A stretch of DNA of 64,000 nt, taken from NCBI GenBank assembly GCA_013115135.1, contig JABANP010000029.1, positions 1 through 64,000 of the forward strand, read 5' to 3'. Shown here piece after piece: positions 2,044 through 51,376 of the stretch; within the stretch, counting starts at the first letter, position 1; the number at the start of each line of letters is the position of its first letter. The notes under the pieces are model-generated. The model was not told where the DNA came from. It saw only the letters and a program-made list of their open reading frames with translations, and did no database searches. The DNA is from Perkinsus olseni (Eukaryota; Perkinsozoa; Perkinsida; Perkinsidae). Made by a program: the position numbers and the translations under genes.

Positions 2044-5000
2044 CTAGCGATAATCATGACCAGTGGTCGTTGTGATAGCGGCTACGTGTTTTATCCAAGA
2101 TATCATGTCGTTGGTGTGGGGTACTGAAGGGTCGAGGAAGCCGAGGTCACCCACTGAGAAGTGGCCTATCCGATCATCTGTGTAGTCCATCAGGCTGAGG
2201 GCTGCAGCGACTGCCGGGCGGCCGGGATGCAACCCAAGACAAGGGCCGAGGGAAACCATTACAACAAGGCCATCATGTTATCGTCATTCCCTTCGAGTAG
2301 GGCGGGCGCCGTGAGCCAAGCGGTCGATGAGTCGGGTGATGAGCTTCTTGAGGCGACCTGACTTGCAGCCTCCACTCCCATACCCCGGCTGATGCCCACT
2401 TGTGTCCTCGGGGATGCGGCACTGCCCAGCCGTGAAGGCCTCATCGCGTTCCGACTTAGTGAAGGCTGCCGTCTTCAGTAACTACCACGGACGGTCGTCC
2501 TGGGCATGGGCGGAATGGAATATATCCACCTGCCCGACGGCGCATTCCGTCCTCTCGTGCCAGCCCTGAGTGGGGCCCATCAGATGCGTATCTTCGGTCT
2601 AAGGTGGGACAACTCGGAAAAGGTCCCTCCGGTGGACGGCACCTCGTTGGACAGATCGAAGTCCGTGGTCGGGGAATCGGAGGCCGATAGCAAAGCTGTG
2701 GACGACAGGACTCGGCGGAGGTGTTGGGTATCTTCCTCTCCCATATCGAACCTGCTCAACCTCGACCGGAGGGGAGAGCACACCGGCCCCCAGCAGACCT
2801 CCACTTCATAAGGCCGATCATCAGCTCGGTAGCGGCGGCCAGGTCGCCACTCAGGACACGCAGTGCAGCTCGGGCATCCTCAATCTCATTGAGGACCTCA
2901 ATAAGGCCACCGTATGTGACCTGGCTGGAGGTCGCAGGTTCGATCCCTGGCTGCGGCATCTTAGACTTCTAGTAATTCGTCCATCCCATTGAGATCTGTC
3001 GGTTGTTTGTCCCTCAACCTTGTCAGGAGCTGCTTTTGGTTGTCTCTGTACTGAAGGGACTTCTTACCAACTTCCAACCGGAGGCCCTACAGGGAGGTGA
3101 CCCGCCCGCCCCCGACCGGACGAGCACCAACCTGGAGGTGATGGCGGATAGAAAAATGATCATCGACGAGGGCGAAGTAGTCCTGCAACGGTAGGGAATC
3201 CTGATGCGTTGCGGTCGTGAAAGTAGCATAAAATGGTGGTGCCCACCAGATAGGTGAGCTGGAAGTCTCCCTCGACGAAGTAGTCCTTGCAGCGTCTCTC
3301 CAGCTCAGCAAGGCCAACCCACAGGGGACCGAACTCCGTCGATTGGACGCAAAATCTGCTGCTGGTTTTCGACTGTAGGATGGTGACATCCTTCCCGCAT
3401 GCAAGTCGCAAGGAGAGAATGTTGCGGACACTTCCCTCTGGCACGTTGTGAGAGCCGGCAGCCTGAGGGGGGTCCTGGTGGGCGAAGTGAAGGAGGCCGT
3501 ACCGATGCCCCCTGGAGGAAGTCCTGGAAGATCGAACCCAGGGTAGGAGGAATGGCGGTGGCCCCGATGGCGACTTTGAAGCTGATCAGGGGGTGTGCGG
3601 AGGGACTGAGGCCAGCTCGAGGGGTACTTGGCTTCTTTGGTCGGGGGTATTGGATGGGCCACGAAGCACAGTGGTAGCTCGAAGCTGCTGGTGGTACATC
3701 GAAGAGTATCTGAGGTTGACGCGAGGAGATGGCAGGCTTGGTGCCCGCCCCACCTCCTAGGGTGTAGGTGAGGACTAGTTCAACATCCCGACTGCTGCAG
3801 AGGATGTGGGCGCTGATGTAGAAGGCCAGCGAGGCTCGACCAGGGGGCACTCCTGGTTGGACCTGGTCGGGGGTGAACGCGGTCGGGGATCATCGGCCTC
3901 ACATCAGGAAGGCTCATGATCTTCGGCATCAACGTCGTGATCGCATCCGAGAGGGGCTGTACGGACAGCGTGAGCCCGCTTGCCGCTCGCCCTGACCACC
4001 GCCATCAAGGGCCATCAACAGCCGGCCTGCAGGCACCTCTAGCGTCTGTATTGGTGATCTCAAATTCTACTGTGATCTGCTGTGGGAGGCCGTCGTGCTG
4101 CTGAGGACGTCCACTACACAACACTGTCACGCAGGCCGCCTCCTACCATGAAGAGGCCCTGTATGTCGTCCTGTTCAGGTTGGAAGGCCAACTCATCAAC
4201 ACTGGTGGGCGGGTCGATCGTTGTTGGTACGTGAACTTTCACGTCAACCTCTTTCGGAGGGAGTTGCTCTCCAGCAGGCTGCCCCGCCTCCTCCTTCTCC
4301 TGATGGTGTCGCCTGATGGCGTCAAGGAGCTGCCTATGCTCAGCTTCCTGAGGGGCAGCTCGGAGGACCATCGGCTGACGCGAGGTCCCCACCATCTGAT
4401 CGTAGTCTAAGTCGCGTGAATCAGTGTTGATCATGGTGGACGCCACGGGTGGGTCTGTGCCGAGGTAGGAGACCTGACTGGTTGTGTGAACTGAGGGCGA
4501 GGTCGGTGGTGGCTCACTCGAAGAACGCCGGCGTCGTCCAGGGAACCTGAGGGGGGTCAGGGACGGGAGGGCTCCCTCAATGGGGTTACATATCATCCCC
4601 ATGGTGTCGCCAAACTCTGCCACAGTGATGGCTGTGATGGGGGATGGGCCGACCAAGCAGCACCAGACCAAGGCACGCTCCCTACAGGGCCATGGCTCCG
4701 ACCGAGACCAACAGATGGCCCGACCTCAGCACTAGTATGTGGCCCGTCTGGGTGCCGATGAGGAGCTGCTGGATGCCATCATCCTTGCCTACTGACCAGA
4801 AAATCATCGCCTTTGGCAGGGGGCCTCTCACCAGTGGGTTGGAGGAGGGGGCAGACGTAAGCGCTGGTGCAGGGGTACTCTAACCGTCGCTGTGACTTTA
4901 CTCGGCCCTGAGAGGGGTGGTCGGATGCCGTGCTAGAGTCGAGGAAGACGACCTTATCATCCACCACGAAGAGGGTTTGGTCTCCGAGGGCTACGACATC

Positions 5001-6447
5001 CTCGTTTGTTCCTTGGGTGAACCTAAGATACGCCTGGGAGTGCCTCCTCCATCGTGACCGCTGGCGACCGTGCCGCGCCAAGCCAGGTGATGTGGTCCCC
5101 CAGGTTGGCCGTCCAATCTGCCGTCAGCTTCTTGCCGGTCATCTGACGACAACACCCTGTAATGCCTACCCTATCCGACTGTGGTTGGGCAAGCGAAGTA
5201 GTCGATTCGTAGCAAGACTGAGAAGTTTTCGGTGGGACAGACTGTGTATCGGATAGGATCTTTATTATCTACTTCCACTACCACACCATAGTAAGCCTCT
5301 GTTGGTCGCTAGTAGCGTCATTAGTCATGAGAAGAACTCGAGCAACCCAACCCGAATGGGAGGAGGAGGGCACCCTACCAGTGTCGGGTCAACATCCACA
5401 TTATCACCGGCCGAGGCCAACGCCGAGTACCTGGACGGCGACGACGGCAGGCAAGGGGCGGCGCTCACAGCCTTACCGATAGCACTCCAAGACCATCTCC
5501 GAGTTCGCAGTGATGAGCCGGTCTGAGGTCGTCAGGTACCTAAAAAATTGTTAGCGGAGCGAAGCAGGGGGCAGCATACAGTAGGGGCCCTGGTACGATG
5601 AAGGAGGACTGAGGGAGAAGCCGGTGGAAGGCAAAGCTTCCGTTGAGGTAGAACTGCAGTACTCCGTCCAGAGATTGAACCTGAGGTCTTCGCAGCAGGC
5701 TAGCAGGGATACCCCTTCGGCTGAACTGGCTACACAAATAGCCTCAGACCCCGCAGAGGTTCGATCCCCACCGAAGGCACCGCTGGTCATATTATACGCC
5801 GGCCTGGCGAACTTATGCGCGGCGACCTGAAGAGAGGGAGGGTCCTTCAGGAGGGCCCCGAAGACGGACAACCTGCTGGATGTCGTAGTAGGCCGCCACC
5901 CCTCCTGACTCCACAGCTGAGACAGCGTACCTGTGAAGGGTGATGTAGGGAAGGAGTGGTAGACAAGAGACTACACTGCGAGGGAATAAGGATGGAGGAC
6001 AGCGAGGAAGAGCTCGCTACTTCCACTGATGAACCTAAGATACTCATCATCGCCGCCGCTGCCGACGATGATGTCGGTGATGACCTGCCCGGGAGTAGCT
6101 GTAGTATCGGCCATTGGAGGTTCCTCTCGACGATGAGGTCCTCGACAGTACTGCCGCCGCTGGGCCCACCCTTCGGTAGGAAGATACGCAGGATCCCCGA
6201 CAGGCTGCCGACTACCACCTTCATCTGGTCGGCAGCGTAATTTCGTGGCGCGTGACGGTGGCAGGCTCACCTTCCCTGCAGGGTCGTTGTCGATATTGGC
6301 GACTGCTACAGCGCCGGCCGTACCATCTATCTCATCAGGCGTCCCTAATCGGAGCCGGTAGACGGCCCAAAAGGAGGAAGATGCGCTTTTACCATCAGTA
6401 GTAGTGATACGCCAAGACCACCAGTCCTTTGCTCGGAACAGGTACAT
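2044..6447 (-). CDS. BBS9: BBS9 / PTHB1, BBSome subunit
   Basis: Orthologue of BBS9 (PTHB1), a scaffold subunit of the BBSome that carries membrane cargo in cilia. The first exon begins MYLFRAKDWWSW, like the family's MSLFKARDWWS start. Then come AVANIDNDPAGK and, after a 46-nt intron, MKVVVGSLSGILRIF and LFLAVLHPYSLAVYSL of the N-terminal beta-propeller. Later exons give EAICVQSLDGVLQFYLNGSF, DWTANLGDHITWLGAARSP, SYLGTDPPVASTMINTDSRD, the linker to the GAE region (VDVKVHVP), LQSKTSSRFCVQSTEFGPLW, PLQDYFALVDDHFSIR and KKSLQYRDNQKQLLTRLRDK. The last certain exon is VTYGGLIEVLNEIEDARAAL; the 3' end at 2044 (SVPHTNDMISWIKHVAAIT) is inferred. Introns are about 40-50 nt and two or three carry recurrent elements (2921-2966, 5540-5579, 6225-6270). 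The start lies 92 nt downstream of the GINS3 stop. BBS9 implies a ciliated or flagellated life stage. Confidence 0.93.
2921..2966 (-). repeat. 46-nt BBS9 intron carrying antisense tRNA T-arm
   Basis: On the minus strand the intron starts GTCTAAGATG and ends CAGCCAG; removing it joins the conserved MDELLE exon to VTYGGLIEVL. Its plus strand contains a tRNA T-arm and 3' half-acceptor look-alike, GCAGGTTCGATCCCTGG at about 2934-2950, so the tRNA sense is opposite to the gene. The B-box consensus GGTTCGANNCC is matched exactly. Confidence 0.8.
5540..5579 (-). repeat. 40-nt BBS9 intron carrying the GCGGAGCGAAGC element
   Basis: Minus-strand intron GTATGCTGCC to ATTTTTTAG; removing it joins IVPGPLL to YLTTSDRLITANSEMV, both expected in BBS9. 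It holds GCTTCGCTCCGC directly followed by a branch-point-like CTAAC and a T-run, so the element supplies the intron's 3' signals. Confidence 0.75.
6225..6270 (-). repeat. 46-nt BBS9 intron carrying the CGCCACGAAATT element
   Basis: Minus-strand intron GTGAGCCTGC to GCCGACCAG; removal joins NIDNDPAGK to MKVVVGSLSG. It contains GTCACGCGCCACGAAATT in the sense of the gene, a sequence repeated in introns of unrelated genes in this window. Confidence 0.85.
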
Positions 6448-6538
6448 GCAAAATAATCGTGAAGAGTCTCTGGGGGCGAGAGGCGAGGATTGACGACCTT
6501 AACACAACACTGCGGTTATACAGTGAAATCTGACATGC

Positions 6539-7943
6539 CTAGTCTCGCCGGGGGGCGATGTGGACGGCCGACTGACGCACTCTCGAGAGCTGCCTACAGT
6601 GGAGGTGGTCGGGGAAGGGGAGACAGGAGCACCCAACCCACCCGCTGCGGAAGAGGTCGTATTCACCGGCAACCATCACACCCTGCTGGAAGACTGAAAG
6701 AGGGAGATACTGGGCTGATGATGACGCTAATGGAGGGCGGACTACTTTCTCGCTCGCTCCTCGTCATGAAGTCCATGAGCACCTAAGGAGGGGTTGGAGG
6801 GGCTATCCCGGTGGGGACAGCGACCCACCTGCATCCTCTTCTCTTGATCGGCACCAACGATCTGGGTCTGGGCTACGTCGAAGATATTCCTCGAGCGCTC
6901 GAACATCCCCTTCAGTAGCCTCTCCATGAGAGTGTGTAACTGACGGTGATGACATCATGAAGGAGAGATGAATGAAGAAAGTATGAGCGGCCACTCGACG
7001 GCACAAAGACCTTTGGCATCGGTGGATGAGAAGGAGTTAGTGAGTCAGTAGGTCATCCAACCTGTTACCTACCCCGAGAAGAGCCGCCAGCCGCATGCCA
7101 ATTTCGAAGTAATAGAAGCTCTTCTGATCCAGTCGCATGACCCTGACGACAAGGACAGCATCGCCTGCAGCACAGCCAGGAGGCCGCCTTACGTCGCCTC
7201 GAGTGTCATCAGGCCCTGCATGTTGGCGTTGAATATCGAAGGCACCTCTTCGATCTGACGGCGGGGGCTTCCACCACCTCACAGACGAGACAGAATTTAC
7301 CTCCACGAAGCGCCGCAAGTAGAGGCCCTCAGCGATCCACAGCGGAAGAGAGAGCTTGCAGTCAGCTGGTAACTGCAGGGGCATCCTCAAGGAGACCCTC
7401 GAAGGGGCGAAGCCGCCTCACGTGATTCGCACTCCCTTCGTCGCCCGACTGACCACCCGCTGGTCTGTTCTCGGCCTGACTCTGACACAAGGGAGACAGA
7501 AGTCTCGCCATCGACCATCGTCGATTTTTGGACCGAATGCATTGCCGACCGCACCCGTCATGGCCAACGCCCGTCACGAGCCTTAGAAGCTGGCGCTCAT
7601 CACAATATCATCGCCATGCAGTAGCGTTACCATATTCTCATCCTCCCCGTCCGCGTCCTCGTCTTCCCTCCTCCTCTGATAGGACTCCACCTCAGCAGCC
7701 TGACTGTTCATCCATCCCAACCCGTACGCTGTGTCGACCAGTCGGGTGTCGATGAGCTGCTCATCCTGAGATCAATCACCGAAGGCGAGCAGCAGGCTGC
7801 CCTCAGCCCACCTGCAGGATCTGGTCCAGGTCCCAATAGTCCTTCCTGCTGTACTTGCTCCCAGCCGAGCCCTGGGTGGTGGGGAAGCTGCCCGCGGAGG
7901 GGTAATGGGGGTCCTCCGAAAACACGTCTTGGGCTGATGACAT
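6539..7943 (-). CDS. GINS3: GINS complex subunit 3 (PSF3)
   Basis: GINS3/PSF3, one of four GINS subunits that activate the CMG replicative helicase in the nucleus. The start at 7943 gives MSSAQDVFSEDPHYP, and the exon ends SRKDYWDLDQILQ, the family's N-terminal 'D-ILA' segment. The next strongly conserved exon is KLSLPLWIAEGLYLRRFVEV (about 7290-7355), equivalent to LELPLWLAKGL in animals. Then LDQKSFYYFEIGMRLAALLG matches the PYFYEVG-KLA helix, MERLLKGMFERSRNIFDVAQ the following helices, and VLMDFMTRSERE joined to IFQQGVMVAGEYDLFRSG the C-terminal helix. The stop is at 6539-6541. Some middle joins (7400-7760) are not resolved. Both neighbours are on the same strand. Confidence 0.85.
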
Positions 7944-19100: not shown

Positions 19101-21312
19101 GCCACGTACGGTTCCTTACATCTGCCAAGTATCCCCCAGATGTTGCCATTGACCATGTTGAAGACCCAATAGCACATATTGAAGTGGGCGGCGAGGAACA
19201 TGCCCGAAAGGCCGAGGAAGAGGTAGTAGACGACAGCGATGACCGCTGTTACGACAGACCATCGGGCGAGGTAACCAAAGCATCTTTCGACCTCCACGTC
19301 CGTCGCAGGCGGTAGGATATCTGTACCACCGACCATGGCCCAGGAGAGATCGACGATCGACCTTCCCGGTAGCCGAGTGACGGGGCAGTGCTTCCAGTGC
19401 AAGCCAGTGGACTTGGACTACATTGCCACTCGGGAGGAGCCGTTGGACCTCCGCCATCGTAGCCATCCGGAAGGGCCTGAGCCACGCCTTCATACCGTAA
19501 CAGTCGCACAGAGGGACGCTTACTTCATTATAACAAAAGCGTGGACAGCAGTCCGCTCTCCATCTTCTTGATATCTTACTCCTCCTAGGCTTTCCTCAAC
19601 GCCACCGTCCGCCTGTGAGGTCTGCTGTTGCTGTAGCAGCACCGCCTCCTTAACACACGGCAATGCTGTTATCTTCTCTTGTAATACCTCCAAGTCAACC
19701 CACTGACCTCCCAATTTGATGAACATGTCGCTACGCCCGAGATACCTGATCGACGGCCTCCAAGATGCCCCGCCAGGGACGGGCTGTCACCCACCTGAGG
19801 GTCTCCACCGAGCCACCCTCCTCCTCGGACCTCCACTGCTGCACCTGTATCAAATCCTTAGTGCGGAAGAACCTTCGGCCGTCGGCTTGCAGGAAGAGCC
19901 CCTCATTGTCAGCTTCATTGACGTAGCCAGTCTCGGTGACACTAGGGCCAGCTAGAGCAGCTCCCCTCTATCTAGCCCGGTCGTGGCCTCGTCTTCAGAT
20001 AGAGTGGTGACACGCACTCCGGGGACGACGGTGAACACTGGTCCACTGGAGGCCGAGGGGGACACCACCCGGTACATGCTGAGCCAGTACTCCGGTGGCC
20101 ACCAACAGCTCGATGAGGATCGGTATCTACAGAATAGACTGTCATAACAATCGTCGTTGCTGTGGTGCGCTTGGGTGGCGAGGTTCCGGGCTGGCGGTTT
20201 CAAAACCGCCACCCCGGTTCGATCCCCACAGCCGTCATTTCTTCGCCTAGCCGCGCCTACCTTGGCGCTCCACTCGTCCCCAATCGGCGCCGTGAGCTTC
20301 TCTCCCCAGGTAAAGACCGCGAGAAGACTCTTCTGCACCTCCTCGTCGAGGGTCGTGGCGGCCAGCTGACTCGGGACAGCTCCAACCACGTTAATTTTAA
20401 ACCGTGTTATCATCGACCTCAGATCCATGGTAGCCATACCAACACAAACGGAACTCCTAGATGATGTGTCCACCATCACCAAGCAACCTCTCAGCGCCAA
20501 AGAGAGGGAGAGCTGGCCGATGCAGGTAGCTCCCCAATATGAGGAGGACTGCTGCAGCACTCGGGAGCCGTCGCGGCCTCCCAGCAGAAGGTCTCGGCGA
20601 GAGTCAGGGATGATGAGGGGATATGATACGAACTCGTGAGCCAACATGCCTTGGGAAACCACTGCACATTTCGATGCTTTCGTAGTGCCACCAGTGTACA
20701 GGAGGCTGAAGATGAAGGGAATCAACAGCGGAGCGAAGCAGATCCACCAGAGCTCACCATAGTGGGGACTCCCTCTTCACGGGCTGCAAGGGCTGCAGTT
20801 CGTTGGGAACAGATCGCGTCGCTCCGTCGAGCAACGAATTAATATCGGCGACCTTGCTGGTCCCCACACCGACAGCCAGGTCGATAATCTCCCTAGGCGT
20901 ACTGCTATCGTCGACCACCACCACGGCTGGCTTGATACTCTTCAGAATTGCAGAGTTGCGTTCTCTAGTAGTGGCGGCGATCTTCTTGACCTCCGCCTCG
21001 TTATTGGTATTAGCGTGCAGATCCTGGACCATCGGGACGAAGGGCACCCCCAGCATCGAAGCTGCCACGCAGACGGCCACCCAGCGAGGGCCCGCGAGGG
21101 GCGCATAAGCCAACCGAGAGGGAGTAACCAGTTGCTTCACAGTCGACGAGTAGACTCCGAAGAGCTGCCGCCATCTGCAAAGAGGCCGAGTACAGCTGAC
21201 CGTAGGACCAAGGCTCGCCGTCAAGGCCGTCAACTGCGAGCCTATCAGGGTGCGCCTCGGCCAACTGCTCCGCTATGGCGTGGAGCGATCCGGGACCGTC
21301 GGGGAGGGACAT
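16133..21312 (-). CDS. NRPS-like protein: adenylation, membrane, carrier, condensation
   Basis: One multi-exon gene with an unusual domain order. From 21312, MSLPDGPGSLHAIAEQLAEA begins an AMP-forming adenylation domain: A3 core SLLYTGGTTKASKCAVVSQG (about 20640-20700), A5 region EYWLSMYRVVSPSAS, A7 TGYVNEADNEGLFLQADGRR with FFRTKDLIQ, A8 YLGRSDMFIKLGGQWVDLEV, A10 LPRHSATGKVDRRSLL. A 46-nt intron then joins hydrophobic segments (SVVTAVIAVVYYLFLGLSGM; VVASFLLTGTLMIVMSLISS; LWWFAWRGVVVVSSGLWLGR). A 50-nt intron leads to an acidic Ser-rich linker, then a carrier domain with SSIDSLGAVQLAHSI, whose Ser is the phosphopantetheine site. Last is a condensation-type domain with THAFSDGFS (HxxxDG with the first His replaced) and VLNFVGPPGS, ending at 16133. 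It could load, hold and condense one amino or carboxylic acid at a membrane; substrate unknown. A frame break occurs near 19965. Confidence 0.75.
20139..20260 (-). repeat. 122-nt intron containing a degenerate antisense tRNA-like element
   Basis: Minus-strand intron of the NRPS-like gene, GTAGGCGCGG to TTATGACAG. On its plus strand, 20159-20232, lie a perfect 7-bp acceptor pair (GCTGTGG / CCACAGC), a D-arm-like CGC..GCG, a GGCGG..CCGCC hairpin in the anticodon position and GGTTCGATCCC. The T-stem does not pair, so it is a tRNA-like relic rather than a working tRNA. Length between acceptor ends is 74 nt. Confidence 0.65.
20729..20740 (-). repeat. GCGGAGCGAAGC element in NRPS-like intron
   Basis: The 12-mer lies inside the intron just before the A3 exon (SLLYTGGTTK) and is followed on the minus strand by a pyrimidine-rich run ending TCTTCAG, as in the BBS9 intron copy at 5554-5565. 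Confidence 0.6.
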
Positions 21313-25237: not shown

Positions 25238-27616
25238 TTAGTGCGCGTTGCGGGCGAGTTTAACCCTGACTCTGTGCCATGAATTGTTGACCAACCCTCG
25301 GACGTTCCAAATAGTTACCGGCCTCTCTGGCTGAGTATTATTGGCATCATCGATGGCTCGAACAATAATCTGCTCAGAATCTTTACTGTGCGCTCGAGAA
25401 GATGAGCTGTGAGCCGACCTCAACCTCCTGCGTCTCCTCAGGTGGCCCTACATCGATGAGAGATGACTCAGGCCCGCCTGGCGGTATCGATACCACTGCC
25501 GACCAAAGTACCCACGACCAAGCGCGGCCAAAACTGCGGGAAAAAATACCGCCCGTTGGGATAGGAGCCCGGGGCCTTTTCCGCCTTACTCCCCTTTTCT
25601 TTCTGGATTTTCCTCCATCATCGCCGGACTCCAGTTTCTGCCTCCGTCGACAGAAACATCAACCGCTTTCACCCGACGACCACCGCCAGAGTAAGCGTAG
25701 CTACGAGGAGGGCAAACTACCCCTACCAGGCTTCGAACCCGAGACCTTACCCTTTGCATACAAACTCATTCTGCTCATCCAACGACACAGTTGCTCCTTC
25801 CACCGGATGGCAGATTGCGCTGGTCACCGGCATAACTTGCAGGGCATCAGCATCTTCCGCGCCGTCCTCGTTATGTTCCTACCAAGCTTGCTTTCGCGCG
25901 CCACGAAATTGAACCGCACAGACACTGCCCACTTGTAAAAATTTATAATCGCTCTTTTGCCAAAATGAGGGACTTTCTTCCCTCTCCAAACAGACTCTTG
26001 ACAACCACTTGACATTCCTGAGGATATCTCCTTCCCACCCAGGTTCGATCCCCGGCAAGGGTACCTGGCTCCGGCTAATCCCGGTGCCACAACTCTAACA
26101 GGCCAGCCATGATCGACTGGCAGGGGCTCTCCGTTCATCTCAAGCGCTAGTATAACATCGCCGTTCTGACTCAATGCCTACAGCAGATCCGGTCAGGGCC
26201 GATAGACTCATAGTGACCAACCTTAGCAGCCGGTACGCTAGCGCCGTAGTTCTGCTGACCATCGCCATCCCTACCCCAGAATTGAACATGACCTTCGGAG
26301 GCCAGCTCTTCGGGTATCCTCTCATCGCCATAGACGTACTGCAGTACTTCACTCAAGCGGGGACCCGTCCACGTGGCATTGGATATGGCACCCAGTGTCC
26401 AGTTCAGACCTGTGGCCCGTCCGTGAGCATCTCACACAGTGCTACTGCAATCACCTTTCACTGGTGGTTTCCCCTCGAGCCTTCGGTTGAACTCAGACCT
26501 CCGATTGCCAGCGCATTGAATGACGGCACTGACGGTATGCTGGGGGAACTTCTCCTTCAACTCATCAACGGTGAGCTCAACAGCCTCCTTCAGACCCACA
26601 CCTTCGAACCGCACCACGGGCTTCTCGGGAGGAGGAGGGACGGGAAAATGATTTCGAACGAAGAAGAGTGCATTGGGGGTCTCGAATGAATCCACGAGGA
26701 GCTCGAGCGGCGCTTCGGCGTTGCATGGCTGCTGCGATCGGAACTGCAAGGCCTGTAAGAACCACATGACCGGCTCGGCGAATGGTCGGCGATGCCTTAC
26801 GGGATGGCGGTGATCTGGCTCAAACCGAAAAGGGTCATCGTCGCTCTTCTTAGACTGACTACTGGCTCGGGCGTAATCCTCAGGATCGAGATTGCCTATG
26901 ATCAGGCTAAGATACCATCCCCTCAGCTGAGGCTTCATCCACCTATCCTCATGGCTTCGAGCATATGGCTAATCTCTGGAAGTTGCAAATGCTGACGATA
27001 GAGTCGCCAAAAGTCGTCCACCGCCCCTCCTGGACAGCAGCAGAAATCACAGGTAAAATGGACAGTGACCTCATCGGCGACCTGCTGCCATTAGAATCTT
27101 CTCCTTCCCTCCGGAGTGCTCCTTGACGAAGTCCGTAATATCGTATACGCCCTCCTTGAAGGTCACCCAAACGCTCAGCCCCTCTTTGTTGTGCTCAGCC
27201 ACCTAACCAGCCACCAGCCGACGCCACACGCAACCCATGCCCCCTCCACCTCCGAGGCCTTGTAGGTCCTCAAGCCTTCAACAGGTTGACCGAAATTCGG
27301 ATGGAACTTCTTCTCGTCATCGACGGTTGCCTCTTCGCAACGCGAGTGGCCAGAGCGCTGCGAATCGCAGTACAACAGGGCGGCGGATGCGGCCGCTGCA
27401 AAGACTAACGCTGCTGACGTGCGGCGGTAAGATCCACCTGAAATGCAGCGATTGCAAATGTGGATCCAAGCAGGACCCTATACCATCACTCAGTTCAGCG
27501 TACGGCATGCCATTCACGATGCCGACGCCTAAGGTGCAACAAGACGGCGCCTGCTTGGAGATAGTCGAGATGGCCCGACAGATGGCCGGACGGAAGAAGC
27601 CTGACCATCGGTTCAT
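25238..27616 (-). CDS. SUOX: Sulfite oxidase with cytochrome b5 domain
   Basis: Mitochondrial sulfite oxidase, which oxidises sulfite to sulfate using molybdopterin and haem. The start at 27616 gives [20 protein letters not shown], a basic presequence. A short exon [20 protein letters not shown] leads into the cytochrome b5 domain [20 protein letters not shown] with [11 protein letters not shown]. The Mo domain follows: [20 protein letters not shown] then [15 protein letters not shown], whose Cys is the Mo ligand; [26 protein letters not shown] joined across a 47-nt intron to [15 protein letters not shown]. The dimerisation domain has [37 protein letters not shown] and [20 protein letters not shown], ending at 25238. 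Three introns carry two different recurrent elements (25701-25750, around 25899, 26018-26064). Same strand as its neighbours. Confidence 0.93.
25701..25750 (-). repeat. 50-nt SUOX intron carrying sense tRNA T-arm
   Basis: Minus-strand intron GTAAGGTCTC to CTCCTCGTAG; removal joins NEFVCKG to YAYSGGGR with conserved sulfite oxidase reading. It contains TCGGGTTCGAAGCCTGG in the same sense as the gene, a T-arm with five pairs including wobbles and an exact B-box. Confidence 0.8.
25899..25910. repeat. CGCCACGAAATT element in SUOX intron
   Basis: On the minus strand it reads AATTTCGTGGCG, between the exon ending DYKFLQVGS and the exon with [11 protein letters not shown]; intron ends are not fixed exactly. 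The element is in the reverse orientation relative to the BBS9 and tepsin-like gene introns. Confidence 0.65.
26018..26064 (-). repeat. 47-nt SUOX intron carrying antisense tRNA T-arm
   Basis: Minus-strand intron GTACCCTTGC to GATATCCTCAG; removal joins PGLAGAR to NVKWLSRV exactly as in sulfite oxidases. Plus strand contains CCAGGTTCGATCCCCGG, a T-arm with four of five pairs and an exact B-box. Confidence 0.85.
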
Positions 27617-37796: not shown

Positions 37797-37951
37797 AACA
37801 ACAATAACTGCTCGTCGAAACGCGCCTGGCCGAGAGGACCTCAGGATTGATACACTGCAACAAAAGACGAATCCAAATCGATCAGATGATCGATTTCAAA
37901 ATCATCATGGACTTCCATGCAGAGTCAACTTCTGTTCACTATCATACTCCC

Positions 37952-40900: not shown

Positions 40901-43668
40901 TACAAAGAAAAAGATACTCTCCACCAGGAGAGAAAATTTCCCGATGATACCAACCCTTCCAACACCTGCACTCTCAATAGGAAAGATAAATCATGCTCAC
41001 AATGAACGATATACTTCCGAAAATCGCGCACAGCGAAGACTTTTAGATACCTTCCGGCAAGTCGTCGGGTTCCGGCGGAGCTTCGCTCCTCGCTAGCAGT
41101 TTCCGAACCCGCGACCTCAAAGATTCATTCTCCTCCTTCAGCCGAATTACCTCCTGCTTCAGCTCGACTACTGCGCCGCTGTCCGGGGGGCATCCTTTGG
41201 ACCTGATCAGAAAGATCCTCTCACCAACGCACGGCAAAGATTTCCCGAGATGCTTTGCCGGCGAAGGGAAAAGATACTCTGTTGATGGTTCGACCAGGTT
41301 ACCCTAGGACCTACCACAATTCAAGATACATCTCAGAGACCTGCTGCAGTTCTTCTTTCAGCCGATCTCTTTCCTCCTCAAGTGAGGACTTCCGGTGCTC
41401 TAATTTCCTCACTTGCGCATCTTGTATAACTTGCGTTTCCTCAATGCCGGCTTCGGCACAACCATTCTTCGAATGCAATGCCTCTTGGGAAGCTGCCTTC
41501 TCGGCCGCAAACTCTCGCTAAACGATACGCAACATTGAAGAGGTCCCCGGTTCGAATCCTGGGCCCGCCACCTTCGTTTTGAGTATCTCAGCTCGGAGTG
41601 TCTTCACCTCCGCAGTAAGGTGCCTATTACTCAGCCGAAGCGTCTCCACCTCCTCCCTCACGCCAACATCTCCCGTGATAGCCGGCCGATACGCCTCGGA
41701 AATTCCACTACTACCAGATTCCATCACCTACGTTAAAGCCCCCGGTTCAACCCCCACACTTGTCATTTTTACCTGCGTATAAGCCTCTATAGTATCCGTT
41801 AGTTGATCCGCCAGCGTCTGCTTCTCTGCTACAGCCTTCCTGCACTGCCTCCTCAAACGCTCAGCCTCCCCGACCAACCCCGCCACCTTCGTCCTCAGCC
41901 TCTCCATCTCCAGCAAAATGACTAACCTTCCTCCACCCTCCCCCAGTTCCCCATCCACCAACGCTCTGCTATTACTATACAGCTGGAGTCCCTTCAACGA
42001 CCGAATCGTCAGGACGGCCAAGTCCCGGGCTTGCCGGCTCAGCGCCTTCAACTTCCACCTAGCCCCCTCGCTCGCTATGACATCGAATCTAGACGCATGA
42101 TCCGCGGGATAGATCCTGACCTCAGGATACTCGCCCGAATAGCAGCACTCCATCGGCTCGTATGAATTTCGTGGCGCAGTGACGGTGAGCCGTACCTGAG
42201 CCGCCAGGCAATCATCCGATACCCCACTTCTACAACTACTACCCCATTGCTCATGACCTGCAGCATAGCGTCCACCTCTCCACCGTCATCACCGATCAAC
42301 TGCACTTGAAATCTCGTCCCCCAGCCGCTATGATATTGTCAAGCATTCGCCGAGTGGCCGCGTCCATCTCCATTGGCCCTTCGCTCAGCAACGTTTTCCC
42401 TTTATACGAGGACTCAGCGCATTCAACCTCGACCATCACCATACACCCTACATCATCCGCGGAAATTCGATAAGTGGTATCTTCCGCGCGCACGCCCAAG
42501 ATTTCACATAGAGGTTCACTTCGAGATCTGCAACAGTACTGTGGGTATTTCCGATACCATCGGCAGTGTAAGGCCACAGGGAACCCACTTTCTGGAGAAA
42601 ATGCAAGGTTGTTCGAGATTACAAGTGGCCTTCTCACCGGTATCTAACCCACTGACTACCAGTGAGCTACTGCTAGATCCGTCCTCAGCCCCCTTCGTAT
42701 CCATCTTGACCATGTACCCCATCGGCTGGCCGTGAGCCAAGATACTCCTTTCCTCCTCTCCAACAGGGAATGAACTGCTACCCAACCCATCACGGTTACT
42801 ACCCTTCTCAATGGAAACAAATGCTCCCCGTACGACTGAAACCGTGGAGGACGTGATCAAAGAGATGGGAAGTTGAGTGAATCCACTGTTGACTACGGTA
42901 CTTCGCGCAGAGTTATCAACTACGCAATCTCGACTGGAATCCAAGATCCGCGAGTCTCCCTTTCCGATGTGAAAAAACCTCTACCAATCGGAGATGTAAT
43001 TTCTGTCATATATAGAAACGCTCTTTCCACTATAACTCATTCCTCCCTCACTACTACCAGTAGCAGCATTCCTCCCCATTTCCGTTACACTGGCCAGCAG
43101 CTGCTCCGGTAGTCCACTGCCCGACCCAGGCAGCATCAGCCTTGACGACCCCCCGCTGATGACCGAAGACAGCGACGGCCTGCTCCTGGTGGACATTCAG
43201 AAACATACTGGAGAGCTCATCCACCGGCGAACTCCACACAAGTTCGGACGAAAACAGAAACTCATGAGAACTCACAAACCGAATTTGAAGATTCTTCTTC
43301 TGACGGTTGGGAGCGACTCCCCGTCATCCCCGAGGACCTCTGCATTCTCCTCAACTTCTTGTCGATTCTTCATCTCCTCCAGCCGACTTTGAAGAGCTTC
43401 TGAAGACACTAAGAGATGTGTCACCATCACTGGGGGAAGCGATACCTCCAAAGGGCTGGGGTCGGAAGCCTCTCACCGCACTGACGTCGGCACTCCAGAG
43501 TATTGATGGCAGCTGCCTTTGGTCAAGGAACATACCCAACACCAGTCGGGCACTGAGATGGGAGATGCTACCACGAATAGTAGCTAAGAACAGGGCATCG
43601 ACTCGTGTAAGAGAGAAGATCATAATCAATAGAGCGGCCTCTGCTGTAACAATGGCAAGATAATGCAT
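37952..43668 (-). CDS. Large kinesin with N-terminal A9-like domain and flanking coiled coils
   Basis: Microtubule motor. The motor domain (about 40990-39330) has [43 protein letters not shown] (P-loop), EIYLDQ joined to [24 protein letters not shown] (switch I), [11 protein letters not shown] (switch II) and [15 protein letters not shown]. After it come FADR, coiled coil ([40 protein letters not shown]) and a C-terminal exon [20 protein letters not shown] ending at 37952. Before it lie Ser-rich sequence, an A9-like domain ([34 protein letters not shown]), a PH-like region ([27 protein letters not shown]) and coiled coil ([34 protein letters not shown]). A9 repeats are known from plant AIR9 microtubule proteins. 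The start is approximate, and a split into two genes near 41040 is not fully excluded. Introns at 41518-41571, 41728-41772 and 42157-42195 carry recurrent elements. Confidence 0.83.
38650..38666 (-). repeat. Recurrent 17-mer at a kinesin 5' splice site
   Basis: Plus strand ACCATGAAAGATACAAA. On the minus strand the intron begins GTATCTTTCATGGT within it. An identical 17-mer occurs at 49216-49232 and a one-mismatch copy at 12170-12186, also at a minus-strand GTATCTT donor. Confidence 0.55.
41518..41571 (-). repeat. 54-nt kinesin intron carrying antisense tRNA T-arm
   Basis: Minus-strand intron GTGGCGGGCC to TATCGTTTAG; removal joins LRAEILKTK to [12 protein letters not shown]. Plus strand contains CCCGGTTCGAATCCTGG (four of five T-stem pairs, exact B-box) followed by GCCCGCCA, like a tRNA acceptor end. 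Confidence 0.82.
41728..41772 (-). repeat. 45-nt kinesin intron carrying a weak antisense T-arm
   Basis: Minus-strand intron GTAAAAATGA to TTTAACGTAG; removal joins TDTIEAYTQ to [13 protein letters not shown]. Plus strand has CCCGGTTCAACCCCCAC, a degenerate B-box with poor stem pairing. It is only about 160 nt from the previous T-arm intron in the same gene. Confidence 0.6.
42157..42195 (-). repeat. Kinesin intron carrying the CGCCACGAAATT element
   Basis: Minus strand GTACGGCTCACC to CATACGAG; contains GTCACTGCGCCACGAAATT in gene sense at 42165-42176 core. The acceptor lacks a clear pyrimidine tract, so the exact 3' border is less certain. Flanking exons are RMIAWRL and the [16 protein letters not shown] exon. 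Confidence 0.6.
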
Positions 43669-44880: not shown

Positions 44881-44953
44881 TGTTCAGCCTGTCGGATTAT
44901 ACCAGCGGTATAATACCGTATTATACCGCTGGTATAATCCGACAGGCTGAACA
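44881..44953. repeat. 73-bp perfect foldback palindrome
   Basis: Two 35-bp arms, 44881-44915 and 44919-44953, are exact reverse complements separated by CCG. The arms begin TGTTCAGCCTGTCGG and are AT-rich toward the centre (TATACCAGCGGTATAATA). Immediately left are GCGGTATTA repeats and the palindrome ATACCGGTAT. It could be a miniature foldback transposon or a cruciform-forming site. Confidence 0.95.
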
Positions 44954-46031
44954 CTCAACATTAGTGAGTCACTAGCGGATGACACTATGCGGCACCCCAC
45001 CGATTCTGGGAAAACCTCAGAGTGCAATGCGCGCAGAAAATTCCAACGTCCCTACTTCTCCAGCGAACTTCCACAACCACCGGTAGAACTAAAATTGCAT
45101 TCATATTGAGGCAACAGCGGCTATTGCTGTTACTGCAAAGGGTGTTGATTCAACACTGTTGAACAGCCTGTAGAGCCGAGGCCCTGATTTTCGTTTTTAA
45201 AGAGACTTCGAAGCGAACCCGCATGGACCAAAAGTCCACTTACCTCAAGTTTGAAGCCATCCTCGTGGGCCATCATAAACCTATCCCTGTTGTACCCATC
45301 CACAATGCTCGGTATACCCAGCTTGGAACGAGTAGCTGCACCCACCGACCGCGCAACGGCTCCTGCCACTCCTACGGCTCCGGATTGAAAGGGGATCATT
45401 TACGAGGCTCTCATCGGCGGGAGGGTACAACGCGCGTCGATCACAATGGCGCGCGCTACAGCATTCGACGGCATGAGCATCTCGCTTGCCCAGACGATCG
45501 GTATTGGGCTCACCAGCTATATAAGGACTGCGAGGGTTTGACCTCTCTCGGGACTTGACAAAAGTTTTGTCCCAAAACCCTTGAGGAAAACTCGGGACAT
45601 ACTCAGGACCAACCAACCGAGTATAGGAGCACCGGTAGTAGGCAATCTACACCCATAACACAAGCTCGGTGCACCTCGCACAAGATACGCTTTTAGTTAC
45701 TTCGTGAAGTTTCACTAGAAGACGTTATCTTAATCGAAGAGGTCGGTGCTTCCGTGATCCTACCGGCATCAAGAACTACCGCTGGGTGTGATCTCTAGCG
45801 GGCCCCTTATGATTAGCGTGATATCTGCCAAAAAATTGGTTCCAGCTGGAATAAGCTGCACCCCTCCAGAAAATTGCATGCGCTCAGAGGACATATCGCG
45901 CTGCTCATTGAGACTCTCGAGGGTCGAATTACTCCCTTGATCGTAGTTTTCCAGGTGAGGTTGTAGCCAGAGCCTTCTGCATCGATATCCACCTCAGCAG
46001 TTTACCGATTTAGTTGTTATTTTCCGTTAAG
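44954..46031. other. Gene-poor stretch with one weak minus-strand candidate
   Basis: A minus-strand frame at 45130-45399 reads MIPFQSGAVGVAGAVARSVG then SKLGIPSIVDGYNRDRFMMA, with protein-like composition, but no upstream or downstream exon with known motifs could be attached. Nothing else recognised. Confidence 0.3.
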
Positions 46032-46472: not shown

Positions 46473-48186
46473 ACGTGCTTGACTGCGACAAATCAGTTTT
46501 TAGTGCGACAAATCAGCTTTTAGGGAATGTCGACCAGAGTTTTTAATCACGGCTTCGCTTAGCGAAGTTCGCCATTGTGAATTTAGATGCGTTACCTCGA
46601 GGTTTGAGAGTCGCGCGTCTCAGTCGGTGCAGATGCCATTGACTACTATCACCTTGGCTTAACGCTTTAACCATGCTTGCTTGTCGTGGTGTTGTAACTA
46701 GTTTCCGTGTGGGATTGCAGGCAACTCGAACTACAAGTGATGTTGACAATGCGTTCTGTAGGATGTGAATTCAATCCAACATACCGGTTTGAAAACACTG
46801 AAGTCAAGCCCCATATAGGAGGAATCGGCATAATTGTAATATGCTAGTAACTTGCGGTGTACACTCACTTCAACATGACGTTGACAACATCCCTGGATTC
46901 ATCCAGTACGACTAGCCTCCAGAATTGCCCAATGATTACTGACATTAAATCTTGTGAGTTGTTACAATATTACTGATGACACTGATCATGGCAAAAAGGC
47001 CGCCAAGAAGGAAGCTAATGTTGTCGTTACCAACTCGCGACAGTTACTTACCAAAGACTCTCAAGATCCTTTCGTAGGCTGTGCGATATAATCTGCGGTA
47101 CAGATTCTGTACCCCAACTCCTCCGCTGACCTTGACTGGACATCACGGAGGAGGGTAGAGACTCAAGCCTCGCACCGTCTGCTAATCAGTCTGATTAAAT
47201 CAGACTCTGCTCGCGTCTGTCGCAAGGCGCCTTAGCACCTTCTCTGCTGTAATGGGGATTTCAGCGTAGAGCCTGGGTGGCTTAACCAGGGTTGGTATTC
47301 CAAGGTTCGTCCACCATTGTTTCCTAAATGGTCTGTGTCATCTGAAGTGGTTCATCGAAATTCCAGTTCATCCAAGATCGTGCCGTCTGAGCACAATTTG
47401 AGTGTTTGTCCAGTTTTTTCGGACACGCACTATTCCAACAACATTTTCGAACGTGTTCGCTTCCGCCGAAGATGTTGAGTTTTGCTTCTTTCCTCTACGA
47501 ATTTTTCGCACGATTTCGGTTGGTCTTCTTCTCGTTTCGTCCAGAATCGATCCGTCCTTCTAGATTCTCTACACGATCGATTCACGCATATCGTACAGAG
47601 TTTGTATTCCAAATGCAGCTCGTAGAGTCACTGCAGTTCACTTGACCAGGTGCTTCGAGATTTCTTGAGCCACTACCCACTTGATCTAGTAATATAATAG
47701 ACTCAATCTACCCTTGCCGTGTCCGTGTTAGTCGGCAATCGGATACACCCTTCTAAGTACTTCTAAGTACTCTAACCCGTGACTTGTCCCAGGAATTTAT
47801 TCACCTTTTATTGGTATATTATCATGAAAGTACTGTCGAAACTTCAACTCTACTCGAGCACAATATTGTTATGAACAACAATCACACTGCGTAACGCACA
47901 TCCCATACATTGTTACTAACAATTTGTTACAAATCTTAAAGATGAGCGTTGTCGTGAATGAACGTGGAGGACGACCCTTCCTGATTCTAAAACGGCGGCG
48001 GCACTGCCTGGTTAAACGAGAATTCCGCGTAATTTAGCGTGTTGTTGCGAAAGATGAGACTTCGGCTAGACAGATAGTGAAAAACAATTTACACTTGGCA
48101 ATTCGCCAACTTGGCGAATTGTCGCGAGATTGGCCAATATACTAGGCGTAAAGCTGTAGTACACGTAAAACGATTGCATCTCCACT
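46473..48186. other. AT-rich gene-poor stretch
   Basis: No supported gene. Contains a two-copy 20-bp direct repeat at 46484-46523, a GCTTCGCTTAGCGAAG palindrome near 46553-46568, a CAATTCGCCAACTTGGCGAATTG palindrome region near 48099-48121, and a duplicated TTCTAAGTAC near 47753-47770. Confidence 0.5.
46484..46523. repeat. Two tandem copies of a 20-bp unit
   Basis: Unit TGCGACAAATCAGTTTTTAG repeated with one difference (46484-46503 and 46504-46523), starting 12 bases after the stop of the secreted-protein gene. Confidence 0.8.
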
Positions 48187-48436
48187 ATTCCCCTATCATT
48201 AACCCTTTACCATTCCCCTATTATTAACCCTTTACCATTTCCCTATTATTAACCCTTTACCATTCCCCTATTATTAACCCTTTACCATTCCCCTATTATT
48301 AACCCTTTACCATTCCCCTATTATTAACCCTTTACCATTCCCCTATCATTAACCCTTTACCATTCCCCTATCATTAACCCTTTACCATTCCCCTATCATT
48401 AACCCTTTACCATTCCCCTGTTATTAACCCTTTTTT
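48187..48436. repeat. Minisatellite, 25-bp unit, about 10 copies
   Basis: Unit ATTCCCCTATTATTAACCC plus TTTACC repeated about ten times with few variants (TATTATT / TATCATT; one CTGTTATT). It abuts the stop of the small minus-strand gene candidate at 48438. Confidence 0.93.
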
Positions 48437-48437
48437 A

Positions 48438-48882
48438 TTACACTATCTTCCTAGTTGAATCATCATATGGTGTTGTTATCCTTTCATCTTTCCATATAAT
48501 CTGACCTCTAAGATATTCCACCACTTTACCATAAACATCAGCTGAAGTCCTTCCTTTAATACTAGCATTAAGACTATCATTCCCTTCAGTTGCATGCTCA
48601 TCTAAATTGCCATATCGTAACATTATGGAAATACTTAGTGAATGATACACATCGTGTGTCGAGGGAAAATCCTAGGCAGTCCGCTTCAGGAGACAGCTGT
48701 GTGCTTGCGTGCAGGAGAGTGGGCGTCACCGCCGAGGCGTTCACTGACGAGTCGGTGTCGGACACTCTGTTGTCGGGTCCGATGTAGATTACACATTCGA
48801 ACGAAAAAACACATATTTCTGCCTTTAATCTACCGTGTGAATCCTTCACTGACAGACGTTCGCGACAGAGATAAGCCACCAT
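48438..48882 (-). CDS. Small gene of unknown function
   Basis: Two exons can be joined. The first, from about 48882, reads LSVKDSHGRLKAEICVFSFE, CVIYIGPDNRVSDTDSSVNA and ADCLGFSLDTR. A 49-nt AT-rich intron (GTGTATCATT to GGCAATTTAG, about 48605-48653) leads to DEHATEGNDSLNASIKGRTS, ADVYGKVVEYLRGQ and a tail IIWKDERITTPYDDSTRKIV with stop at 48438. Composition is protein-like but no family is recognised. It could be a decayed gene or lineage-specific. The start is uncertain. Confidence 0.38.
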
Positions 48883-48970
48883 TTAAAGACGAAGATTGAC
48901 TCCCCGTTTAATTAACGACGCCTTAAGCGATCCTGGAATTGCTGCTGAAGAATAGATTCTGACAACCTGT

Positions 48971-49012
48971 TATATTGAGGCCGCTAATATCGAGGCCACC
49001 GGCCTCAATATA
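48971..49012. repeat. Perfect 13-bp inverted repeat
   Basis: Arms TATATTGAGGCCG (48971-48983) and CGGCCTCAATATA (49000-49012), with a partial third copy (ATCGAGGCCACC) in the 16-nt loop. Confidence 0.85.
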
Positions 49013-49218
49013 GCGCGCGCTGGGATTTCGATGGAATCAGGTTTTCGACAAATCATGGCGCGGCCTGTTGGCTCAACAATGATGAACATCATCGCCCGAT
49101 GACTCGTTTCTCATTATCTCCTCAGGCCCCTTGCGACCCTTTATGTTTTTATTATTCTTGGCGATGTCATCGGGGTGTCTGGCAGTCGGACGGATGAGGT
49201 AGTATCCAAAGGTTAACC

Positions 49219-49852
49219 ATGAAAGATACAAATTTCGTTAGACTATGCCCTCTCGTCATCGATATCGATTGCGTGCTTAGGACTAATACCCTCTCCCTCG
49301 GCCACTCCCCTCACAGCGTATCCTTCGAGATGTGTGAAATGGATAAGCCAGAGGCCTGCGTATCCGAGAAGGCCCGGATCGACAAGTACGGCATATCGGA
49401 CGCCGTTGAAACCGCCGGTCACGGCGGGGAGGAATACTACACCTTCATCAGAGTACTCGCTCATCGATCCTTCGGTATTGGTCATGGGTCTCACTCAGGC
49501 CAGCGGCACTCTAAGCAAGTGTCGCGTCCAGCACGCTGATCTGATCAAACGGGGAGGGGTCTATTGGTGCGACAGTTGGGGCAAGAAGAAGTCGCAGCCT
49601 CCCATCACGCTGTAGTGGCAGTAGCAGCAGTTGGTCGGCTTGTCTATGACCTGTAGCTTCAGACACAAGGGAAATCTACTCGTCTTCATCCCTGGTCGAG
49701 ATAAAGATACGGGAGAGGCTAAGACCTTCACCGCCAGACTGACCCTCCTCGATGAGCCGAGCCTTGAGAAAGGGAAGGATCTAGAGTTGAATGTAGTTGA
49801 AGGTGGGTCGTCACAGTGTCACAAGATTCCTTTTCCGCTTAGTACGCCATAG
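49219..49852 (+). CDS. Possible small plus-strand gene, unidentified
   Basis: Exon-like frames read SLGHSPHSVSFEMCEMDKPE, then TLSKCRVQHADLIKRGGVYW with CDSWGKKKSQPPITL, then GNLLVFIPGRDKDTGEAKTF and TARLTLLDEPSLEKGKDLEL. They are co-directional with RRS1, whose start lies 200 nt further on, and look protein-like, but borders and frame joins are not settled and no family is recognised. Confidence 0.3.
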
Positions 49853-50053
49853 ACCTCCGGAACTGCGAGGTGGGGTCCGGGGAGGAGCTTCATTGCCAAG
49901 AGCCAATTCCCAGTCATGTCCGAGTCAAGTCGGGCTTCACCAGTGCCGGTCAGAATGTAGTGTGATGGTCGTGTCCTCCACGTGTGGGTGTACTCCTCCT
50001 TAGTGTTGTGTTGTTGGGCATGGTTGATCGCCTGTAGGGGTCTACTGTGTATA

Positions 50054-51376
50054 ATGGCCGCTCTTCGTTCCCCCTATCCAGCTAAGGAGGATAACCTCTC
50101 CTATCAGCTATGCGACTTGGCCGCCTTCGATATCGACCACATCGACGCGAAGAAGGACGACCTCGAGGAGATCGGTAGTGGACTGGGAGGGCCGGAGGGT
50201 GTGGGGGCGACGCTTTTCTTCAGCTCGGGACAACACGCAGCTGCTCATCAATCGCATCTTCGACTTGCGAACTGAGTCTGCTGGCATCGCCGAAGGGCCG
50301 GTCTTCGCCACTCTGCCTGAGGTAGTGGTTTCTGGAATGGGTTTCGTGGCGCGTGAAGATGGAGGTGTTGGTCAGGCGACTCAGCTTGCTCGCCAGCCTG
50401 ATGGCCTTGTTGTTCGACTCCCTCGTGAGAAGCCGCTCCCCAAGCCGAAGCCGATGACCAGGTAATTTGATCTATTCTGAAATGGCTCGATACAGCCGTC
50501 CTCTCAGGTGGGAGAAGTTCGCGAAGGAGAAGGGCTTGGATGCTAAGAAGAAGCGTAGTAGAATGGTGTGGGATGAGACGTCGAAGGACTGGGTGCCGAG
50601 GTGAGGACGCCCACTGACCGTGCTGAAGGTGAAGGGTGACTGTTAGGTGGGGCCCTAATTCTATTAAGCATAACCAGGAGAAGATGAACTGGTTAGTGGA
50701 GGTCGATGAGGATCGCGGAGATAATCCGTAGGAGAGGTCCCAGGTTCGTTCCTTGGACAGGGTATTCATTTTAAGGTACGAGGATCCGTTTGCTAAGCAG
50801 AAGGCCATCGAGAAGCTCGGCCAGGCGAAGCAGAAGGTTCGCGAGATGAGGAATAAACTCGAGGGAGTTGGCAAGAAGTTGCCTGCCGGTACGCAACTTG
50901 AATCGGGAAAGGTCGCTCTCATCCGACTCTGAAGGTATATCGGGTGGTCCCGAGTTGGGGTCCATCAAGCGTGGTACGATCAATCTGAAGGAGAGCTTGG
51001 CCCGAGCCCAGAAGAGTTCCGCATCGAGTGGCAAGTAGGTTGGGTGTAATTAGCCCTCGAGTAGTTGAGGGTCGCGGGCTCAGGTTCGATAAGCGACAGA
51101 AGAATGAAAAGGAAGTACCCGTTGCGAAGCGTCGGAAGGTTAACACTGCTGTACGTCTCGAAGTGATGGTGAGGGCGAATATTCGTTGCTGATCAGACTC
51201 CTATTAATGAGGAGAAGTCGAAGAACCTCGCAGTGATCGGCCGCTTGATGAAGGGCGAGACCACGTCCACTGGTACAGTGAAGGTTGATAAGAAGAAGGC
51301 GGCGGGATGGGGGCAGACCCTTCACGAAGCCGCTCGGAAGGAGGAAAAGGCTCAGAGTGGCGGAGCGAAGAAGTGA
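50054..51376 (+). CDS. RRS1: RRS1 ribosome biogenesis protein
   Basis: RRS1 works with Rpf2 to bring the 5S RNP into pre-60S particles in the nucleolus. The start at 50054 gives MAALRSPYPAKEDNLSYQLC and DLAAFDIDHIDAKKDDLEEI, then RDNTQLLINRIFDLRTES, the family's TRDN-QLLIN helix. The core signature LVVRLPREKPLPKPKPMTR joins across a 47-nt intron to WEKFAKEKGL, then RMVWDETSKDWVPR and WGPNSIKHNQEKMNWLVEVD. YEDPFAKQKAIEKLGQAKQK begins the C-terminal helical part, followed by basic sequence (DKRQKNEKEVPVAKRRKVNT) and an ending HEAARKEEKAQSGGAKK at 51376. Introns are 45-65 nt; the one at 50728-50775 contains a sense T-arm and one near 50321-50383 contains part of the CGCCACGAAATT element. Confidence 0.92.
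50728..50775 (+). repeat. 48-nt RRS1 intron carrying a sense tRNA T-arm
   Basis: Intron GTAGGAGAGG to CATTTTAAG; removal joins DEDRGDNP to YEDPFAKQ. It contains CCAGGTTCGTTCCTTGG, which pairs as a complete five-base T-stem with one G-T, preceded by GGTC as in many tRNAs. The B-box has one deviation. Confidence 0.68.

Follow-up and report, generated by a model that had tools for sequence, protein, structure and literature searches.

The first 64,000 nucleotides (nt) of contig JABANP010000029.1 of Perkinsus olseni, hereafter the window, carry seven introns that contain a B box, the promoter module of RNA polymerase III (Pol III), and these introns belong to a family dispersed over the genome. 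The family shares a unit of about 44 base pairs (bp) with the layout of the 3' half of a transfer RNA (tRNA) followed by a terminator. The unit is enriched in introns whose length is close to its own, where it lies in both orientations, and in one case, an intron that interrupts the P-loop of a kinesin, its presence is best read as lineage-specific. The explanation that we favour, though with little more than even confidence, is that such units entered genes as DNA and are removed by the spliceosome: they would be introner-like elements with a new source.

The unit and the seven introns of the window

With the first G of GGTTCGA numbered 0, the shared unit runs from about -17 to about +27 and reads GTAANCGR-AAGGTC-N3-GGTTCGANNCC-N9-CATTTT, which in tRNA numbering corresponds to positions 35 to 73 plus a trailer. 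The motif GTAA stands at -17 in 14 of 130 copies, tRNAs excluded, against 0 to 2 at neighbouring offsets in a set of 132 copies. AAGGTC begins at -9, the core occupies 0 to 10, position 13 is S in 88 of 89 copies, positions 14 to 19 are nearly random, and the 3' end has C at 20, A at 21 and a T-run from 22 to 26 (89 copies). The 89-copy and 132-copy sets include the tRNA-Ser of contig C1, and the latter also the tRNA-Thr of locus L138; both were removed from the 130-copy set and from the comparison of acceptors given below.

Introns were predicted with a motif-blind gene finder that combines a three-periodic Markov coding model, splice-site position weight matrices (PWMs) and a length model, trained iteratively on the window and the first 200 kb of contig C1 (264 kb in total). 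Its splice signals are GT[AG][AG]G for donors and TCAG for acceptors. In the end it predicts 549 introns, which cover 44,032 of the 264,000 bases; their median length in the fourth training round is 50 nt. The sizes agree with those tabulated for P. marinus, with a median of 49 nt and 99.3% GT-AG introns (PMC7789003, Table 1). Copies of the unit were scored with a PWM of 44 columns, trained on 120 copies from loci outside the 264 kb.

The original prediction had described the introns of the window as built around a T-arm, either as tRNA-derived introners or as TFIIIC-binding B boxes spread by intron gain, and had counted seven perfect matches to GGTTCGANNCC. The count is exact (2937, 5758, 20216, 25729, 26042, 41549 and 52241), and so is the way it was divided: one match lies in a true tRNA, tRNA-Glu (52189..52263, plus strand, found by ARAGORN), one in a putative exon of a gene model (5758..5768, plus strand, PWM score 15.2), and five in the named introns. 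A true tRNA-Val at 52054..52127, plus strand, also found by ARAGORN, serves as a further comparison.

The gene finder predicts to the base the BBS9 intron (2921..2966, minus strand, 46 nt, GT-AG, PWM score 38.0), whose perfect core at 2937-2947 is on the plus strand and thus antisense to the gene. It does the same for two kinesin introns on the minus strand, both with antisense cores on the plus strand: one of 54 nt (41518..41571) with a perfect core at 41549-41559, and one of 45 nt (41728..41772, PWM score 21.5) that begins GTAAAAATGAC and has a degenerate core, GGTTCAACCCC, at 41744-41754. The RRS1 intron (50728..50775, plus strand, 48 nt, PWM score 25.0), with the core GGTTCGTTCCT in sense at 50743-50753 on the plus strand, is also recovered to the base. 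The two unit-bearing introns of SUOX, a gene on the minus strand, were missed by the gene finder, which lost the end of that gene, and are skipped in sulfite oxidase proteins of P. olseni and P. chesapeaki (P0001, P0002 and P0003). The first is 50 nt long (25701..25750, junction FVCKG/YAYSGG) and has a perfect core in sense at 25729-25739, minus strand; the other is 47 nt long (26018..26064, junction AGAR/NVKWL) and has a perfect antisense core at 26042-26052, plus strand. Two P. olseni proteins have 96% and 99% identity to the SUOX prediction of the window (88% and 54% of the query covered), and a P. chesapeaki protein has 74% (71% covered). BBS9 and RRS1 are the gene names of the original prediction; SUOX, the kinesin domain and the NRPS-like gene were checked by homology.

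The remaining intron, in the NRPS-like (AMP-binding) gene, occupies 20127..20260 on the minus strand (134 nt), with a perfect antisense core at 20216-20226, plus strand. The gene finder read through it as exon, and P0121, a predicted (annotated) P. olseni protein, skips it and continues as IPILIELL, coded from 20126 downwards. If the 3' border originally proposed, 20139, is used, a stop appears four codons on. All seven introns are thus supported, those of SUOX and the NRPS-like gene at the protein level. Six introns have exactly the GT..AG borders first proposed, the 3' border of the NRPS-like one probably has to be moved by 12 nt, and the proposed orientation, five antisense and two sense, is correct.

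Three observations concern the surroundings of these introns. Directly downstream of the NRPS-like intron, at 20018-20138, a one-base frame difference is apparent between the window and P0121. Between 2287 and 11104, a flavoprotein-reductase-like and the BBS9-like gene are fused in one gene-finder model, and by eye are probably two genes. The repeats at 45468-45661 and 48637-48790, of about 155 to 195 bp, each have more than 10 dispersed copies, mostly at 82-99% identity. A 17.5-kb search for allelic or paralogous copies of the window introns found only one 1.8-kb duplicate and dispersed repeats, and hence no empty site for kinesin or RRS1.

Distribution of the unit over the genome

The assembly analysed, which contains the window, has 61,483,535 bases in 968 contigs. 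In it, the pattern GGTTCGAWNCC occurs 3617 times, against 239 for the reversed pattern, a 15-fold excess. The longer pattern AAGGTCNNNGGTTCGANNCC occurs 396 times against 1 for its reversed control, and AAGGTC-N23-CATTTT, in which the B box is not required, 80 times against 1; among the 49 of these whose sequence was inspected, 45 carry the core. A strict pattern for the 5' half of a tRNA (D-arm and A box) has 96 matches against 1 in the control, many of them in tandem tRNA arrays, so that the 3' half is dispersed and the 5' half, as judged by this one pattern, is not. Series of tRNA genes or B-box patterns in tandem were seen at C172:58499-73262, C522:395-11705, C571:18275-27559, C179:206336-208593, C778:264811-310471 and C96:428-19841, the last with a spacing that is often about 316 bp.

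The original prediction had proposed, as a check, to compare a B-box profile in introns with exons and other DNA. At a threshold of at least 14 bits, the PWM finds 23 sites in the 264 kb, and the reversed PWM none. Removing four tRNAs (Val, Glu, Ser and His) and one duplicate on the second strand leaves 18 sites, of which, before hand checks, 11 fall in gene-finder introns, 4 in non-coding sequence and 3 in exons. Two SUOX sites, one kinesin site and one NRPS site were then moved on homology evidence, which brings the intronic sites to 15 of 18, with C1:61660 (non-coding), C1:14551 and window 5763 (both exon) as the residue. At a looser threshold, at least 9 bits, there are 30 sites and 2 in the control, and the same filtering gives 18 intronic sites out of 25.

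A wider sample was drawn from the surroundings of the first listed matches to GGTTCGAWNCC and AAGGTCNNNGGTTCGANNCC, with tRNA loci removed. Its 94 loci hold 102 matches: 33 in introns, 60 in non-coding sequence and 9 in exons, for background shares of 8.8%, 63% and 28%. The matches are thus 3.7 times as frequent in introns as the background, and less frequent in exons. Those called non-coding are a mixture of missed introns with true intergenic or untranslated-region (UTR) sites. Three of the four non-coding sites of the 264 kb turned out to be intronic on checking. Pfam searches of ten open frames beside non-coding matches gave three weak matches, all under the cut-off. At one locus of 611 bp (L099), by eye, the unit lies just upstream of a histone H4-like frame, possibly in a 5'-UTR intron or a trans-splicing outron.

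The splice borders around 78 matches were also scored: 62 exceed the median of the controls, 30 their 90% point and 24 their 95% point. Downstream of the B box, TTCAG occurs 358 times against 181 for TGACT, an excess that is only rough because both counts include tandem arrays, for example those of C96 and C179. Together, the scores and the counts suggest, roughly, that about half of all copies lie in short introns. A confusion-matrix estimate of the intronic fraction, 0.34 (5-95% range 0.26-0.44), was rejected as circular, since its truth set is the gene finder's own calls. The pattern of GTAANCGNAAGGTC, B box and CAG, found at 33 places over 43-69 nt and never in the reversed control, was not used as proof of splicing: several of the 33 belong to homologous contigs, and for C17:1571 the gene finder predicts an antisense intron with other borders.

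A set of 47 introns at separate places bears the unit, 27 in antisense and 20 in sense. Their median length is 53 nt, for 50 nt among introns overall, and 37 of them have at most 64 nt. Four were entered by hand, the NRPS-like intron with the border originally proposed, and the others are those of the gene finder; few gene identities were checked, and the gene model permits no borders but GT-AG, which all 47 therefore have. Most borders fall near the ends of the unit, some just inside. Of the 20 sense introns, 17 have the 5' site between -23 and -6, and 19 have the 3' end between +27 and +57. Of the 27 antisense introns, 22 have the 3' end between -34 and -11, and 25 have the 5' site between +18 and +45. 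In these predicted introns the unit coincides with most of the intron, and related introns recur at 47 separate places, as in introner families. We provisionally place the B-box units among the introners on this ground.

Origin and maintenance of the unit

The one candidate for an intron gain is on contig C1, where an intron of 49 nt, GTGAAGGTCCCGGGTTCGATCCC...CCCAG (C1:134502-134550, minus strand), interrupts the P-loop of a kinesin. Its removal restores the P-loop, and the protein aligns to KIF4 without a gap at the site; none of the 12 other kinesin matches found has a break in the P-loop. A lineage-specific insertion is the simpler reading, and the comparison favours intron gain.

Assuming that B-box units were inserted into genes as DNA and then removed by the spliceosome, their letters would supply splice signals on either strand. 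A unit in sense would offer GTAANCG as the 5' splice site and its T-run as the pyrimidine tract ahead of CAG. A unit in antisense would offer a donor of GTAAAATG type, complementary to the T-run, and a pyrimidine-rich acceptor in GACCTT, the complement of AAGGTC. Use in antisense argues against reverse splicing as a general route, because reverse splicing inserts in sense. The B box itself would be kept through recognition by the Pol III factor TFIIIC, needed either by a mobile source or in place.

What is conserved is the B box, as had been proposed, and not the tRNA fold. Among 42 distinct copies selected by their flanks alone, the core is nearly fixed, with T/A variation at tRNA position 54 and G/A at 57, and 40 match GWTCRANNC, the Pol III B-box consensus: an intact B box outside a tRNA gene, obtained without selecting for it. 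The T-stem pairs 49-65, 50-64 and 51-63 can form in 35, 57 and 38 of 89 copies, for shuffled expectations of 39.6, 51.2 and 38.4, and in 21, 23 and 12 of the 42 flank-selected copies, for 19.6, 22.2 and 13.7 expected. A search for a hidden acceptor stem, in which the acceptor would pair with sequence on either side, gave a best z of 2.1 over 97 offsets. Rfam, applied to the NRPS intron and 20 loci, returned weak matches only, none to tRNA: three cores matched tmRNA, of clan CL00001, and the unit of locus L076 the mascRNA family, which is tRNA-like. Variation is thus much lower in the B box than beside it, and the RNA fold is not kept. The term T-arm is not supported, and the case for "tRNA-derived" is one of layout (AAGGTC, B box, spacer of 7 nt, A, T-run) rather than of fold, since pairing in the T-stem is at the level of column composition, the acceptor is nearly random and the 21 stretches have no Rfam tRNA match.

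Acceptors share an identity of 0.33 or 0.40 among copies that agree at 12 or 13 of the 14 non-selected core positions, and of 0.23-0.29 at low core agreement. This slight rise points to some shared ancestry, far less than in the core. A sub-group in which GGATCGA replaces GGTTCGA makes up 10 of the 42 distinct copies (contigs C28, C44, C73, C95, C98, C102, C107, C192 and C289), often with AAGGTCCCCGGATCGAATCCC and with differing acceptors; its A54 is reminiscent of eukaryotic initiator tRNA-Met.

Several results weigh against insertion followed by splicing. Acceptors so close to random are not expected from a simple recent burst of one master. No target-site duplication beyond AG/GT was found at the splice junctions (mean direct repeat 2.15, for 2.17 in permuted data), and no terminal inverted repeat (5.26 of 12 positions paired, for 5.64 permuted); an introner of the DNA-transposon (MITE) type would be expected to show both. 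The matches in model non-coding sequence, 59% of the sample of 102, occur at about the background rate, and one of them, at locus L074, resembled exon by eye. When splice sites, frame and coding potential are tested together, 47 of 99 matches exceed the 80% point of the controls, 29 the 95% point and only 3 the 99% point. The unit is present in 7 of the 411 gene-finder introns of 36-75 nt (8 bits; 0.2 in shuffled and 0 in reversed controls), so that its share of introns is a few per cent. The kinesin search is biased towards unbroken paralogues, because a paralogue with an intron at that place gives weaker, split matches. Finally, GT is in excess at -33, the place of the tRNA D-loop (19 of 130 copies, for a mean of 7.3 elsewhere), so that the tRNA-like body may be longer in some copies.

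Whatever their origin, the intronic B boxes could instead be under selection in place, as extra TFIIIC docking sites. We hold this account to be unlikely, yet deserving of serious weight. It agrees with the near fixation of GWTCRANNC, with variation of T/A and G/A as in B boxes, and with the nearly random 6-nt acceptor: orientation is irrelevant for a site bound as DNA, and only the bound letters are kept. Chance pairing in the T-stem also argues for a role as DNA rather than as RNA. Alone, however, such a function fails to explain why introns are enriched over other non-coding DNA, or why the unit fills the intron, and the fixed spacing to CATTTT requires another reason. Nor do we put much weight on the capture, at DNA breaks, of the 3' halves of many tRNAs cleaved in the anticodon loop, each with its own acceptor from birth, although this would account for the nearly random acceptors, the C, A and T-run with which copies often end, the position of GTAA, which at -17 is tRNA position 35, in the anticodon loop, and the lack of target-site duplications and terminal inverted repeats. 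True halves would retain their T-stem pairs, which are at chance. The only matching tRNA, tRNA-Thr(TGT), reads GTAAACTGAAGGTC and not GTAANCGRAAGGTC, in a search with one D-arm spacing; as a parent it was rejected, since GTAA agrees but the letters that follow differ.

It is also improbable that tRNA-derived short interspersed nuclear elements (SINEs) or tRNA pseudogenes landed in pre-existing introns and were trimmed to the B-box half. A few copies (L032, L072 and the NRPS intron) do seem, by eye, to have longer tRNA-like bodies, and the excess of GT at -33 and the Pol III type of the B box point the same way. However, introns with the unit are about as long as others, 53 against 50 nt, and not longer by 44. 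Judged by one strict pattern, the A box is not spread over the genome, and an A-box-like word lies upstream of only 6 of 130 units, with 0 and 3 in the controls. No blastn match of at least 60 nt spans the unit between any two of the 94 loci, and Rfam tRNA matches in the 21 stretches and target-site duplications at the splice junctions are likewise lacking. We give practically no credence to an artefact, that is, to B-box words produced by composition or by true tRNA genes. The window taken alone is unremarkable, as with one mismatch allowed it has 22 matches for 16.45 expected and 7 of 100 shuffles reach as many, but the controls refute this reading: the excess is 15-fold over the genome, the longer layouts give 396 against 1 and 80 against 1, and ARAGORN finds a tRNA in only 7 of the 120 targeted loci (L031-L150), which were set aside. 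Insertion of the unit as DNA, followed by splicing, is the reading that we retain. The original proposal of tRNA-derived introners stands in so far as a dispersed unit, in either orientation, takes up the greater part of each of a set of short introns, one of which is best read as a gain.

Relation to known introners and significance

The likeness to the introners of Micromonas, Aureococcus and fungi (PMC9860276) is that of a family present as GT-AG introns in unrelated genes, with a unit that is nearly the whole intron; the words "tRNA", "SINE" and "Perkinsus" are absent from the main text of that paper. According to PMC7789003, Aureococcus introners always have direct repeats and terminal inverted repeats, whereas the Perkinsus unit, of about 44 nt, with a B-box layout and in both orientations, has neither that we found. 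The same paper describes repeated intronic elements in Amoebophrya, a basal dinoflagellate relative, with inverted repeats of 8-20 nt, direct repeats of 3-5 nt and mostly non-canonical splice sites; the Perkinsus introns are GT-AG, and neither kind of repeat was found in them.

The unit shares a dispersed Pol III B box with tRNA-derived SINEs. SINEs retain an A box and the 5' part of the tRNA, and show target-site duplications, but in the Perkinsus unit no target-site duplication was found at the splice junctions, nor, with the patterns tried, a general A box. ETC/COC sites, that is, extra TFIIIC sites, have a B box without a tRNA gene; the Perkinsus unit resembles them in this, but is intronic and has a tRNA-like spacing to the T-run. 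A literature search, judged on titles and the openings of abstracts and covering few subscription papers, found no B-box or tRNA-derived introns in Perkinsus. The family thus appears introner-like in function and anatomy, with a source that we did not find described in the literature searched.

The origin of new introns is an old question, and the introners known are mostly transposon-like. The Perkinsus family raises the question of why a Pol III B box, rather than a tRNA fold, survives. In a bolder reading, to which we attach only modest belief, a Pol III promoter module became a bidirectional intron-maker whose B box has since been kept: more than 1000 introns might then double as TFIIIC-binding sites, with a function in chromatin or for Pol III. 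If a B-box unit can be spliced in both directions, it would add another kind of source for introns, and would exclude reverse splicing, which inserts in sense only, as their main route.

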